A DNA stretch of 64,000 nt, from assembly GCA_022510685.1 (NCBI GenBank), contig JAFLTA010000004.1:41105-105104 (forward strand). Reading direction: 5' to 3'. The translations under genes were made by a program, and so were the position numbers. Below the pieces are notes generated by a model. It searched no databases. It saw only the letters and a program-made list of their open reading frames with translations, and was not told where the DNA came from. This document shows, one piece after another, positions 20,123 through 25,610 of the stretch. Numbering within the stretch: the stretch's first letter is position 1; the number at the start of each line of letters is the position of its first letter. Source of the stretch: Lachnospiraceae bacterium (GTDB lineage: Bacteria; Bacillota; Clostridia; Lachnospirales; Lachnospiraceae).

Positions 20123-21367
20123 ATGAAAACAACACCTGTCAAAGGAACCAGGGATTACCTTCCAAAAGAAGCGGCACTTCGGGATTATTTACAGGAAATA
20201 ATCAAGTCAACTTATCAGGAGGCGGGTTTTGAACGCATTACAACGCCCATTATCGAGGATGCAGTAAACTTAGATAAAAGCGAAGGCGGTGAAAACTTAA
20301 ACCTTATATTTAAGATTTTAAAACGGGGACAAAAATTATCTTCTGCCCTAAACGGAGAAAATCCTACGGAAAATGATTTATCAGATATGGGACTGCGCTA
20401 TGATTTAACCCTTCCTCTATCCAGATATTATGCAAATAACCGAAACGAATTGATGAATCCTTTTAAGGTGATTCAGATGGACAGGGTTTATCGCGCAGAG
20501 AGACCGCAAAAGGGACGTCTTCGGGAATTTATGCAATGTGATATCGATATTATCGGCAATGCTTCTCCGGATGCAGAGGTAGAACTGATCTTAACGACTA
20601 CAAGAGCTTTGACACGCATCGGTCTTCCTTCTTTTAAGGTAAAAATCAATGACCGGAGAATTCTGAAATCTATTTTTTCCTATGCCGGTTTTACGGAAGA
20701 AAACCATGAAAAACTGGCAATTATTTTTGATAAATCAGATAAAATCGGTATCAATGGAGTGAAAACAGAGTTAGAGGAAAACGGCTTTTCTGCTACTGCC
20801 ATAGATACTTTCATCGGTTTATTTGAGGGTGGCAGTCTTGACTTAGAATCTGTTGCAAAAGTTTGTGATGCGGAGTATGTAGCATCCTTAAAATATATCA
20901 TTGATACGGTAAACACTGTATCCGGCGGAGCTTTTCCGGTTGAATTCACTCCATCTTTAGTACGTGGACAAGGCTACTATACGGGAACTATTTTTGAGGT
21001 GGAGGCTGATGGCTACAGTGGTGCCGTCGCCGGTGGCGGTCGCTATGACAACCTCATCGGCAAGTTTCTGAACGAAGACATTCCTGCTGTCGGATTTTCC
21101 ATCGGTTTTGAGCGGATTTTCGGTATCCTGATGGAGCAGGATTACGAAATCCCCGGACTGAAAAAACGCATTGCCGTATTTTATGATAGCGACACCTATG
21201 CTGCTGCCCTGCAATACGCAGGAGAACTTCAAAAAGATTATCTGGTTTCCACGATTGCCAGACCAAAAAAGCTGGGCAAATTCTTAAACCGACTTGAGGC
21301 AAACGGATATGATGGCTTTGCTGTTTACGGACAGGAGGACGGAGTCAAATTATTCGGACAGGATTAA
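20123..21367 (+). CDS. hisS: Histidine--tRNA ligase (eukaryote/archaea-like motif set)
   Basis: KGTRDYLP, GLRYDLTLPLSRY, RVYRAERPQKGRLREFMQCDIDIIG, VRGQGYYTGTIFEV. Confidence 0.78.
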   Translation: MKTTPVKGTRDYLPKEAALRDYLQEIIKSTYQEAGFERITTPIIEDAVNLDKSEGGENLNLIFKILKRGQKLSSALNGENPTENDLSDMGLRYDLTLPLSRYYANNRNELMNPFKVIQMDRVYRAERPQKGRLREFMQCDIDIIGNASPDAEVELILTTTRALTRIGLPSFKVKINDRRILKSIFSYAGFTEENHEKLAIIFDKSDKIGINGVKTELEENGFSATAIDTFIGLFEGGSLDLESVAKVCDAEYVASLKYIIDTVNTVSGGAFPVEFTPSLVRGQGYYTGTIFEVEADGYSGAVAGGGRYDNLIGKFLNEDIPAVGFSIGFERIFGILMEQDYEIPGLKKRIAVFYDSDTYAAALQYAGELQKDYLVSTIARPKKLGKFLNRLEANGYDGFAVYGQEDGVKLFGQD

Positions 21368-21393: not shown

Positions 21394-21430
21394 AGGTCAG
21401 AAATCTCGACAAAAAGATTTCTGACCTTTT
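21394..21430 (+). terminator. Rho-independent terminator after hisS
   Basis: AGGTCAGAAATCT-cgacaaaa-AGATTTCTGACCTTTT. Confidence 0.85.
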
Positions 21431-21452: not shown

Positions 21453-23621
21453 TTATCGAATAAAATTTGTTCCGATTCGTTCTTCTTTTTCCGGCAATCC
21501 AAAACACTCTTTGCCCAAACCAATGCTCTTTATGAGAAATGCCATATTCTTGCCCAGGGTGCGCATGGTCTGCAATCCCTCTCCGTCTCGTCCGGCTTCA
21601 TCCGCATTATTACCGTGAATGTTATTCCAGTACTGACTGGATACCACAGGCATTCCCGAAATGGTAAAGAATTTATTCAACTCGTCAAAGGTAGCCGAAC
21701 AGCCTCCGCGTCTCGCAGACACTACCGCTGCTCCCGCCTTCATAGTCTTATCAAAACGGCTGCTATAGAATAATCTCGTGAGGAAGGCAACTAATGTGGC
21801 ATTGGCAGAAGCATAATATACCGGACTACCTACTACCAGTCCGTCTGCATCTCGAAACTTTTCTGCCACCTCATTGACAATATCGTCAAATACACATTTT
21901 CCCTTTTCCGCACAACCATTGCAGGCAATGCAACTTCGAATCGCAAGATGTCCGACCTGTATCGTCTCAACGGTGATTCCCGCTGCCTCTAACTCCTTAG
22001 CCACTTCTCCCAGCGCAGTTGCCGTAGAACCGTTGCTGTGAGGTGAACCGTTGATCAGTAAAACCTTCTTTGGCTTTTTCTCTATGATATCCACCAGACT
22101 TTGTGAAGACACGGCAGCTGACTGCTCTGCTGTATTTCCCTGACTGTCCTTTACCGCTTGATCCGGTGCAGAAACACTATTTTGCACATTATCAACTACA
22201 TTTGTCGAAGCTGTATTCTCCTGCCCTGATACTGCATTCCCTTCTATACTTCCTTCCGGCAGTTTTGCTTCCTCTACAGATTTACTGCCCAGATAAATTA
22301 CTGTTCCCCGGTTTGGCGGAAGAACAATTTGCAGACTACCGTTGCCATAAGTTACTTTGTCTGCCTGCCCAAGCAAATCCGTAGCTGCCGCTCCCTGAAC
22401 CGGTGCATTCAAAGATATTGTCGCCGGGGCATCATCACTGTTTAATGCCACAATCATAGCACTGTCAGAAAGTACACGTCCATAGGCAAACTGTCGATTG
22501 GTCAGTGACAACTCCTGATAGGCACCCTGTGTCAACTCCGGATATTCCTTCTTTAGTTCACCCAGCTTCATACAGAGTGCTGTAATCTTATTTTCCGTAT
22601 ATGCATTCTGGAAATCCTTGATATCCAGGTATGGACGCAAATTCCAATCGGAACTTTTCTCCTTCTTTCCTTCAATGGCAAACTCAGAGCCATAGTAAAG
22701 GGAAGGTATGCCATACAATGTATATACCAGAATCGTTACCAGGAATAAATGCTCTTTATTTGTTAATTTTGAGTAGATACGCTCCACATCATGGTTATCC
22801 ATAAAAGTATACAGACGGTAATTGCCGCATATACCCAACAGGCGCTTTACGGAATGGGCAATCTCGAAATAATTATGGTCATTATGTCCGGAGTACAGTC
22901 CCTTGTGCAACTCATAGTTGGTCACTGCATGGAGCATCTGGTCGCCTACCCAGCGGCTGTAATCACCGTGGATTACCTCGCCCATCAGCCAGAAATCCGG
23001 CTTCAAACCATCCGTCACCTGACGCATTGCACGCATGAAACCATGGTCTAATACATCTGCAGCATCCAAACGGATTCCATCAATATCAAACTCAGACACC
23101 CAGAAGCGGATGGCATCAAAAATATGATTTTGTACATCAGGATTTTGCTGATTGAGTTTTACCAGCAAGTTGTATCCACCCCAATTGTCATAAGAAAAGC
23201 CATCATTATATTCATTATTTCCACCAAAATTAATATTGCAGAACCAACTGCAATAAGGTGAATTTTCCCTCTTTTCCTTAACGTCTTTGAATGCAAAAAA
23301 TTCTCTGCCCACATGATTGAACACACCATCTACGATAACCTTCAAACCAATTTTATGACAATATGCCACATAATCCTTAAAATCGTCATTGGTACCAATA
23401 CGCCTGTCCACTTTGCAATAATCCGTTGTCTCGTAACCGTGTCCCACAGATTCAAACAAAGGTCCGATGTATATCGCAGTACAATTTATTTTCGCCGCAT
23501 GATCTGCCCACTCCCTCAACTGGTCAAAGTGAGACTCCTCCTTCCCCGTATTTTCTTTTGCACAGCCACACAATCCTAACGGATAAATGTGATAAAATAC
23601 TGCCTCATCATACCAAGCCAT
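21453..23621 (-). CDS. Fusion protein: GH13 alpha-amylase-family glycosidase + low-complexity linker + iron-sulfur flavoprotein/NAD(P)H oxidoreductase-like domain
   Basis: GH13 residues GIRLDAADV, WLMGEVIHG, TFMDNHDVERI; C-terminal KVLLINGSPHSNGSTATALGEV...CIACNGCAEKGKC...GLVVGSPVYYASANATL; single uninterrupted frame. Confidence 0.85.
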   Translation of the reverse strand: MAWYDEAVFYHIYPLGLCGCAKENTGKEESHFDQLREWADHAAKINCTAIYIGPLFESVGHGYETTDYCKVDRRIGTNDDFKDYVAYCHKIGLKVIVDGVFNHVGREFFAFKDVKEKRENSPYCSWFCNINFGGNNEYNDGFSYDNWGGYNLLVKLNQQNPDVQNHIFDAIRFWVSEFDIDGIRLDAADVLDHGFMRAMRQVTDGLKPDFWLMGEVIHGDYSRWVGDQMLHAVTNYELHKGLYSGHNDHNYFEIAHSVKRLLGICGNYRLYTFMDNHDVERIYSKLTNKEHLFLVTILVYTLYGIPSLYYGSEFAIEGKKEKSSDWNLRPYLDIKDFQNAYTENKITALCMKLGELKKEYPELTQGAYQELSLTNRQFAYGRVLSDSAMIVALNSDDAPATISLNAPVQGAAATDLLGQADKVTYGNGSLQIVLPPNRGTVIYLGSKSVEEAKLPEGSIEGNAVSGQENTASTNVVDNVQNSVSAPDQAVKDSQGNTAEQSAAVSSQSLVDIIEKKPKKVLLINGSPHSNGSTATALGEVAKELEAAGITVETIQVGHLAIRSCIACNGCAEKGKCVFDDIVNEVAEKFRDADGLVVGSPVYYASANATLVAFLTRLFYSSRFDKTMKAGAAVVSARRGGCSATFDELNKFFTISGMPVVSSQYWNNIHGNNADEAGRDGEGLQTMRTLGKNMAFLIKSIGLGKECFGLPEKEERIGTNFIR

Positions 23622-23708: not shown

Positions 23709-25610
23709 TCAAAGCTGCTGTCTCTTATGATGAATCTCTTTATCTGCATACATTGCCGCATCAGCCTCATTAATCAGTTTATCAATCTCCTTTGCCGTCT
23801 CAATCTCTCTCCAGACAGTGCCACAGCTTGCACCCATCTGATAAGATATTTCGCAATTTTCATTCAATACATCGATATGCTGCTGCAAAACATCGTTGTA
23901 ATGCTGATAAAAATCAATATCCGACTCCGAGGTGGCTTCCAACATGGCAACCATATATTCATCGCCGCCAAAACGGGCGCAAATCCCATTTTTGTTTCGA
24001 ACCACATCCTCCAACACGGAACCGATACTGCAAATCGCAAAGTCGCCTTCCTGATGCCCAAAATTATCATTGACATATTTCAAGCGGTCCATATCCACAG
24101 AGGCAATAAACAATGTTTTAGGCTGAGTCCCCAAAAGCTTCATACGGTTTTCTATTTCTTCATAAAATCCGCGCCTGTTGTACAATGAAGTCAACGGATC
24201 TCTCACATACAGACTGTATAACTGCGCCTGTTTGTGGACATTGCCAAACACCTGATCAATACTCATGGTAAATTCATAAAAAGCACCGTAGTCAATCCGG
24301 TTTAACTCCTGAGATATAATCATAAAACCGTAATCCTCCGTCTGCCAGTGCAGGGGAACTATTAATTCCAGTCCCGTCTCCTGTCTGATCCACGAAAGCT
24401 TTTCCACCTCCGTTCCCTTGGGAATCACCTCTAAAGGAACCGAATACTCACCATTCCGTATTTGAACCAGTTTAATATAACTGTCTGTATTTTCATCTTC
24501 ATCAATATCCGTATTGCGGTAAAAATTAGGATTGACACAGATGACCATATTGTCTGACGGAATAATCCAACGATACTCCCTCAGTTTTTCTGCCATGCGC
24601 TGTAAGGAATGCCCCTCCGACAATAAATTCATCATCATGAATAAATCGTTGGACAGATTGCGAATGGCGCCGCTCTTGGTATACCAGTGCATAATTTCTT
24701 CGCTGAGATTATGCCAACTGGCGGCTTCACATCCACAAGATTCCCTATATACTACATGGAAAGGAATTTCTATATCATAAGGTGTCGTTACCTCTCCGGA
24801 TAAGTATTCCGTTATCATTTTTACAGCGTAGTGTCCAACCTTTTCTGTATCATCTTTTGCCGTGGTCAGCTTAGGTGTCATGCATTGTCCCAACTCCAGT
24901 CCGTCAAATCCCGTGATAATCACATCCTCCGGCACTTTAATACCGTGATTTTGCAATACATTGCTCACTGTAATCGCCATAATATCATTGGCACAGATAA
25001 TTGCCTCCGGACGCCTCTGCTCTCCACTTTCCCACTGACTCACCCAGCTTTCAGCAATTTCTCTGGTAGGTCCTTCCCAAAATTGACCATATGCCAGATA
25101 CTCCTCCTGAAACGGCAGACCGTTTTCCTGTAATACCTGTTTAAATACGTCAATACGGTCATCGGAAAACTCATTGTTATCAAAGCCTGCTATAAAATTT
25201 ATCTCTTTGCATTGATGAAATTCCACCACGTGTCTTACAACCTGTTCAAAAGAAGAACTATACGCCATGGTAATATTGAAACATTCGGGCATACTGTGAT
25301 CCACGGAGATTACCGGCACTTGATTTTTTTTAGCTCTGTCCGCTAATTTCCTGCACACTTTTTCATTGCGAATCGACTCGGACAAAATAACCAACGCCGA
25401 AATTTTATTAAAAGGAACATTACGAAACACACTCAACTCTCCATTGCCATGACTTGTATCTACGTCCAACTTTGTGGAAATATTAAATACCATGACTTCA
25501 TAATCTTGTGCTCTCGCACTCTCACAGAGAGAACGCACAAGTTTTTCCTGCTCCCACATATGAATCCTTGCTACGCAAACTGCAATAGTTTTTTTCATCA
25601 TTATCCTCAT
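23709..25610 (-). CDS. LacI/PBP1-type ligand-binding domain fused to GGDEF diguanylate cyclase domain
   Basis: IAVCVARIHMWEQEKLVRSLCESARAQDYEVMVF..., PEAIICANDIMAITVSNVLQNHGIKVPEDVIITGFDGLELG; DPLTSLYNRRGFYEEI, ARFGGDEYMVAML. Confidence 0.85.
   Translation of the reverse strand: MRIMMKKTIAVCVARIHMWEQEKLVRSLCESARAQDYEVMVFNISTKLDVDTSHGNGELSVFRNVPFNKISALVILSESIRNEKVCRKLADRAKKNQVPVISVDHSMPECFNITMAYSSSFEQVVRHVVEFHQCKEINFIAGFDNNEFSDDRIDVFKQVLQENGLPFQEEYLAYGQFWEGPTREIAESWVSQWESGEQRRPEAIICANDIMAITVSNVLQNHGIKVPEDVIITGFDGLELGQCMTPKLTTAKDDTEKVGHYAVKMITEYLSGEVTTPYDIEIPFHVVYRESCGCEAASWHNLSEEIMHWYTKSGAIRNLSNDLFMMMNLLSEGHSLQRMAEKLREYRWIIPSDNMVICVNPNFYRNTDIDEDENTDSYIKLVQIRNGEYSVPLEVIPKGTEVEKLSWIRQETGLELIVPLHWQTEDYGFMIISQELNRIDYGAFYEFTMSIDQVFGNVHKQAQLYSLYVRDPLTSLYNRRGFYEEIENRMKLLGTQPKTLFIASVDMDRLKYVNDNFGHQEGDFAICSIGSVLEDVVRNKNGICARFGGDEYMVAMLEATSESDIDFYQHYNDVLQQHIDVLNENCEISYQMGASCGTVWREIETAKEIDKLINEADAAMYADKEIHHKRQQL

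Follow-up and report, generated by a model that had tools for sequence, protein, structure and literature searches.

A GH13 glycosidase fused to a complete Isf-like flavoprotein in Lachnospiraceae, and the differing tails of its relatives

In a Lachnospiraceae bacterium (NCBI GenBank assembly GCA_022510685.1), a single open frame of 722 codons (positions 21453-23621, minus strand, ATG start) encodes an intact GH13 glycosidase, a disordered linker of about 72 residues and a whole 205-residue flavoprotein of the FMN_red/Isf-like type (Table 1). Positions refer to the window, i.e. the whole stretch of 64,000 nucleotides that was analysed (contig JAFLTA010000004.1). The fusion is confirmed as genuine and is shared with two other species of the genus. 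Our preferred reading, held with a probability of about two in three, is that of a selectively maintained bifunctional protein in which two independently working enzymes are tethered, and which is one product of repeated C-terminal fusion and tail replacement.

Table 1. Parts of the fused frame and its two neighbouring genes, in window positions
Feature	Position	Strand	Basis
GH13 catalytic core and C-terminal beta domain, residues 1-445	22287..23621	-	PF00128; phmmer alignment to 1ea9 and TVAII
Ser/Val/Ala/Gln-rich disordered linker, residues about 446-517	22071..22286	-	identity, pN, pLDDT, composition
Complete FMN_red/Isf-like domain, residues 518-722 plus stop	21453..22070	-	PF03358; standalone homologues; AF2
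Compact Cys motif CIACNGCAEKGKC, CX2CX2CX5C (C564, C567, C570, C576)	21894..21932	-	positions, invariance, motif of PMC3164229
LacI-type sugar-binding domain fused to GGDEF diguanylate cyclase; upstream context, outside the fusion	23709..25610	-	Pfam Peripla_BP_3 and GGDEF; synteny
HisZ/histidyl-tRNA-synthetase-like; downstream convergent context gene	20123..21367	+	Pfam tRNA-synt_His; synteny

The fused frame, its domains and its linker

The preliminary description had read a GH13 domain and an Isf-like flavodoxin-fold domain in one frame, and both Pfam families are found there. The Alpha-amylase match (PF00128) covers residues 43-323 (E 1.5e-43, 150 bits against a cut-off of 22), and a weak Malt_amylase_C match covers residues 366-436. 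The catalytic residues, which had been described as apparently intact, are D186 in GIRLDAADV, E215 in GEVIHG and D278 in FMDNHDVERI; they represent the GH13 Asp/Glu/Asp of conserved regions II, III and IV and align with the motifs of cyclomaltodextrinase (CMDase) and TVAII in phmmer alignments that span the barrel and the C-terminal domain. In the same alignments the N-terminal CBM34-like domain of GH13_20 enzymes is absent and the fusion protein begins at the barrel, with residues 2-16 aligning weakly to CMDase 126-140 and the main match starting at CMDase residue 177. The score for the cyclomaltodextrinase NCBIfam equivalog, 156.5 bits, lies below its cut-off of 540 bits. The N-terminus, MAWYDEAVFYHIYPLG, reads as lacking a signal peptide, in agreement with the cytosolic location proposed earlier. 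Its family and motifs suggest an intracellular neopullulanase-type hydrolase or transglycosylase acting on maltodextrins or glycogen fragments.

The flavoprotein part matches FMN_red (PF03358) at residues 519-666 (E 8.9e-26, 90.7 bits against a cut-off of 24). The CX2CX2CX5C spacing noticed at the outset is borne out, all four cysteines being invariant in 29 of 29 aligned sequences, fused and standalone; the compact Isf motif has been defined as CX2CX2CX5-7C (PMC3164229). The score for the SsuE NADPH-dependent FMN reductase equivalog (TIGR03567) is 39 bits, against a cut-off of 164. Judged from its sequence, the tail is a putative FMN-dependent, probably Fe-S-containing oxidoreductase of the Isf type.

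Of the 299 genomes of a family sample drawn at almost one genome per genus, 184 contain homologues of the redox part (E 1e-45 or better). Nearly all fetched copies are standalone, i.e. products of a separate gene, about 205 residues long and starting MKVLLINGSPH exactly at the junction; the joined part is therefore the whole enzyme without its initiator Met. No second close FMN_red copy was found in the three GH13-fusion genomes, which is weak evidence because these are drafts and a close standalone copy is present in only 5 of 25 other members of the genus. The fused redox domains of the three species form one clade (support 98/94), which does not nest with standalone copies from their own genus. 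In genome G100 (L228:1501-2850), a homologous flavoprotein is attached, through a linker rich in Thr and Val, to another protein of no recognised family. In genome G107, a separate FMN_red gene (L023:3669-4286) follows a GH13 bearing a 50-residue tail, about 250 bp downstream and on its strand; no other adjacency of this kind was noticed.

The AF2 model gives pLDDT below 50 (about 25-35) across linker residues 451-505, which are predicted to be disordered, followed by a confident flavodoxin-type alpha/beta domain with pLDDT mostly above 80. The GH13 half of the model is poor, its alignment holding three sequences, so no contact between GH13 and flavodoxin can be read from it; also, the Foldseek matches listed for the fusion model are GH13-type folds only, leaving the flavodoxin part unaddressed. 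Internal re-initiation yielding a separate FMN_red was considered and rejected as improbable, the linker having no ATG and three GTG codons without a clear Shine-Dalgarno sequence. The linker may be cleaved in vivo.

Full-length orthologues of the fusion occur in G309 (75% identity) and G321 (74% identity), aligned over residues 1-722 without stops. Among the three species, pS over both domains is 0.73-0.84, close to saturation, and pN is 0.11-0.14 in the GH13 part and 0.13-0.19 in the FMN_red part, against 0.49-0.64 in the linker, where amino acid identity falls to 16-31%. In the fused state, strong constraint has therefore acted on both ends but not on the linker. The fused GH13 domains form one clade (support 99). 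An assembly error at the linker had been named as what would undo the finding, and the source is indeed a draft genome of 102 contigs; however, the recurrence of the identical architecture in separate genomes of two other species, at 74-75% identity and with near-saturated synonymous sites, rules an assembly or annotation artefact out for practical purposes.

Alternative tails at the locus and across the family

Across the genus, the GH13 gene keeps a syntenic position. On one side are ftsQ-ftsZ, a CAAX-type protease and usually the LacI/GGDEF gene, which adjoins it in most congeners looked at; the other flank in congeners is often hisZ-asd-NUDIX-pyrC (neighbour names, apart from those of Pfam-scanned genes, were read off translations). 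The LacI/GGDEF gene and the GH13 gene are separated in G311 by a PAS-GGDEF-EAL gene, and G319, G315 and G324 have an ORF of similar size at that place. The LacI/GGDEF neighbour could possibly link sugar sensing to c-di-GMP. The flavoprotein tail sits between the GH13 part and the HisZ-like gene. Between the fusion and this convergent gene, an inverted repeat (aggtcagaaatct / agatttctgacct, window positions about 21394-21427) is likely a two-way terminator.

What the GH13 carries at this place differs between species. A flavoprotein tail is present in G000, G309 and G321, a VOC/glyoxalase tail in G302, G303, G307, G315 and G324, and a short tail without an assigned family in G318, and the GH13 is bare in G299, G306, G308, G310, G311 and G319. 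An origin of the flavoprotein tail by fusion of adjacent genes is unsupported here, the downstream neighbour in syntenic relatives being hisZ or other genes and not FMN_red. No separate close relative of the VOC tail was found anywhere in the genus. The GH13 tree places a second pair of VOC-tailed proteins (L002, L050) outside the flavoprotein clade, with moderate supports of 87 and 91, and the two VOC groups are related (31-44% identity). Because of this placement and this relatedness, the simplest reading of the sequences is that an older VOC/glyoxalase tail was probably replaced by the flavoprotein at this locus.

Outside the genus, GH13 proteins of the same clade bear a range of further tails, including an HD hydrolase (HD_3; L006), a HicB-like domain slightly under the Pfam cut-off (L058), HTH_11 plus 3H as in NiaR (L069 and L074, Faecalibacterium), a 2-hydroxyacid dehydrogenase (L133, recurring in G661), GlgA (L132) and GlgB (L130), and GalE is found at the opposite end of the GH13 (L134). 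The HD, HicB-like, GlgA and GalE fusions were seen in one genome each, and for GlgA the locus in a congener shows a contig edge and a broken frame. The L132 genome keeps a second, separate GlgA beside its fusion, 52% identical. Several lineages lack a tail and show, within the GH13 C-terminal domain, an insert of low complexity that is probably helical.

The GlgB case shows variation within one genus, in which GlgB is a neighbour of the GH13 or fused to it (L283-L291; G069, G662, G666, G667, G673, G674, G663, G669 and G665). G662 and G666 have the intact fusion, with a repetitive linker of the EPKKVTAA type; in G667 the joined frame is broken, and GlgB is a separate frame adjoining the GH13 in G673, G674, G663, G669 and G665. 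One route to such tails is therefore the joining of neighbours, and this series represents a fusion caught in mid-course.

The commonest tail, at 73 loci, is a module of 50 residues ending in DSL(V/I)NW(V/I)KSFR (LQxxILxKMxxNGPVTDQM...HDSLVNWVKSFR in the A1 alignment, e.g. L102:7597-7746 and L012:1258-1407), carried by the GH13 of many gut Lachnospiraceae such as Blautia wexlerae. It has no match above noise in Pfam and none among PDB chains, and in 120 family genomes all strong matches to it are tails of GH13 frames already seen. The AF2 model of the Blautia wexlerae protein places it behind a disordered linker as a three-helix unit with pLDDT above 90. In G063, the C-termini of Rpn/PDDEXK_2-like ORFs match it weakly (L242, plus strand, 107 aa, 2e-5; L243, minus strand, 300 aa, 4e-4). 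There are hints, to be taken as a lead only, that the module may derive from the end of a transposase-like nuclease.

A paralogous GH13 clade, 45-50% identical and drawn from the same 299-genome sample, provides a control. Among the matches listed, frames of at least 530 codons make up 36/99 in the clade of the fusion and 0/52 in the paralogous clade (Fisher p 3e-8), leaving out three checked exceptions from the former count and one N-terminal TetR-like fusion from the latter; the comparison is approximate, because it is taken from open-frame lengths and includes inserts in the C-terminal domain, and its counts are not phylogenetically independent, because the common tail is largely inherited.

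Readings of the joining

In the bifunctional protein that we favour, an intracellular neopullulanase/cyclomaltodextrinase-like GH13 would act on maltodextrins or glycogen fragments, and a flexible, disordered tether would hold a whole Isf-type, FMN-dependent oxidoreductase, known elsewhere as a stand-alone protein. The two would behave as beads on a string, with expression and location in common and no shared reaction intermediate. This GH13 lineage would repeatedly gain and exchange C-terminal tails, of which the flavoprotein, probably in the place of an ancestral VOC/glyoxalase tail, is one outcome. Two side-by-side enzymes are preferred to channelling or redox control because the linker is long and unconserved and the tails are freely exchanged. 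A location of both domains on glucan particles is possible.

The preliminary description, in setting alpha-glucan hydrolysis beside a redox domain, had implied a meaningful functional pairing, which does not fare well. Such coupling would have the flavin, Fe-S or NAD(P)H state switch the GH13, or the redox domain act on a product connected with glucan catabolism, and it would be in keeping with the constraint on both domains within the fusion, with the FMN_red gene downstream of the GH13 in G107 and with the tendency of gene fusions to mark functional links (PMC4921024). However, the GH13 of sister species is bare or VOC-tailed, in almost every other sampled genus with a copy the redox enzyme is encoded on its own, and no fixed domain geometry is preserved by a linker so long and unconserved, so we regard coupling as unlikely. 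About equally improbable is that the GH13 is a carrier, which binds intracellular alpha-glucan (glycogen) and holds the tail enzyme at the particle or in a common assembly, with a cargo that varies by lineage. The functional diversity of tails on one GH13 clade, two of them the glycogen enzymes GlgA and GlgB, the constancy of low-complexity or disordered linkers and the lack of tails in the paralogous clade among the matches listed all agree with a carrier; yet glycogen binding is predicted from family membership, FMN_red, VOC, HD, NiaR-like and HicB-like tails have no common theme, and the GlgB case is accounted for by plain fusion of adjacent genes. We would likewise give little credence to the wider proposal that the GH13 C-terminus is a docking site, onto which lineages load enzymes or the 50-residue helical adaptor via disordered tethers at intracellular alpha-glucan. 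On that proposal, the fusion described here would amount to a redox enzyme anchored to glucan.

A more serious competitor, tentative though it is, is a neutral fusion hotspot, where extensions at the GH13 C-terminus are tolerated, insertion or read-through readily affects the 3' end of the gene, and the joining itself has no function. Tails would then persist merely as the sole copy of a useful enzyme, and this account overlaps with the bifunctional reading as its no-benefit version. The many unrelated tails, the insertion precisely between GH13 and hisZ, the fast-evolving linker and the presence of GlgB as a separate neighbour in several congeners and as a fusion in others are what such a hotspot would produce. 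Against it, some tails look made for this GH13, because the VOC tail has no close standalone relative in the genus and the 50-residue tail is essentially confined to this GH13.

Significance and relation to known systems

Frequent gene fusion in metabolism is well known (PMC4921024), and both parts of the pairing described here belong to known families; open-access papers yielded no earlier account of a fusion between GH13 and flavodoxin, nor of this exchange of tails. Within a genus, one orthologous gene at one chromosomal place exists in bare, VOC-tailed and flavoprotein-tailed versions, and other tails appear outside the genus; the series provides natural material on the assembly and exchange of multidomain enzymes. 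It also brings to light a conserved domain of 50 residues on this GH13, as yet unnamed, and it advises caution, as the GH13-flavoprotein fusion should not be taken to prove a pathway link.

Among characterized enzymes, the best sequence matches of the GH13 part are the neopullulanase/cyclomaltodextrinase/maltogenic amylase group (TVAII, 1jf6; CMDase, 1ea9; neopullulanase, 1j0h), which also gives the best fold matches for the model of a close relative's GH13. The catalytic triad and the surroundings of the catalytic Glu are conserved with this group, whereas the relationship is distant (Foldseek identity about 25%) and the fusion lacks the CBM34-like domain, scores under the NCBIfam equivalog cut-offs and bears a redox domain. 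The tail resembles Isf and FMN_red/WrbA-like flavodoxin-fold reductases in its FMN_red match and its compact CX2CX2CX5C motif, and differs in being joined behind a GH13; its FMN and [4Fe-4S] cofactors are predicted. The only PDB chain matched by the redox-domain sequence (3e-7) is 7d38, the flavone reductase FLR of Flavonifractor plautii (identified by the naming of this entry code in PMC7862272), an FMN-dependent flavodoxin-fold enzyme of gut bacteria (PMC7862272). The match is limited to residues 2-142, and FLR, the longer protein, has a C-terminal tail linked to its activity. The GlgB (G069, G662 and G666) and GlgA (G234) fusions share with the flavoprotein fusion the GH13 clade, the C-terminal position of the partner and a repetitive or low-complexity linker; their partners are functionally obvious and GlgB is an adjacent gene in relatives, whereas FMN_red is neither.
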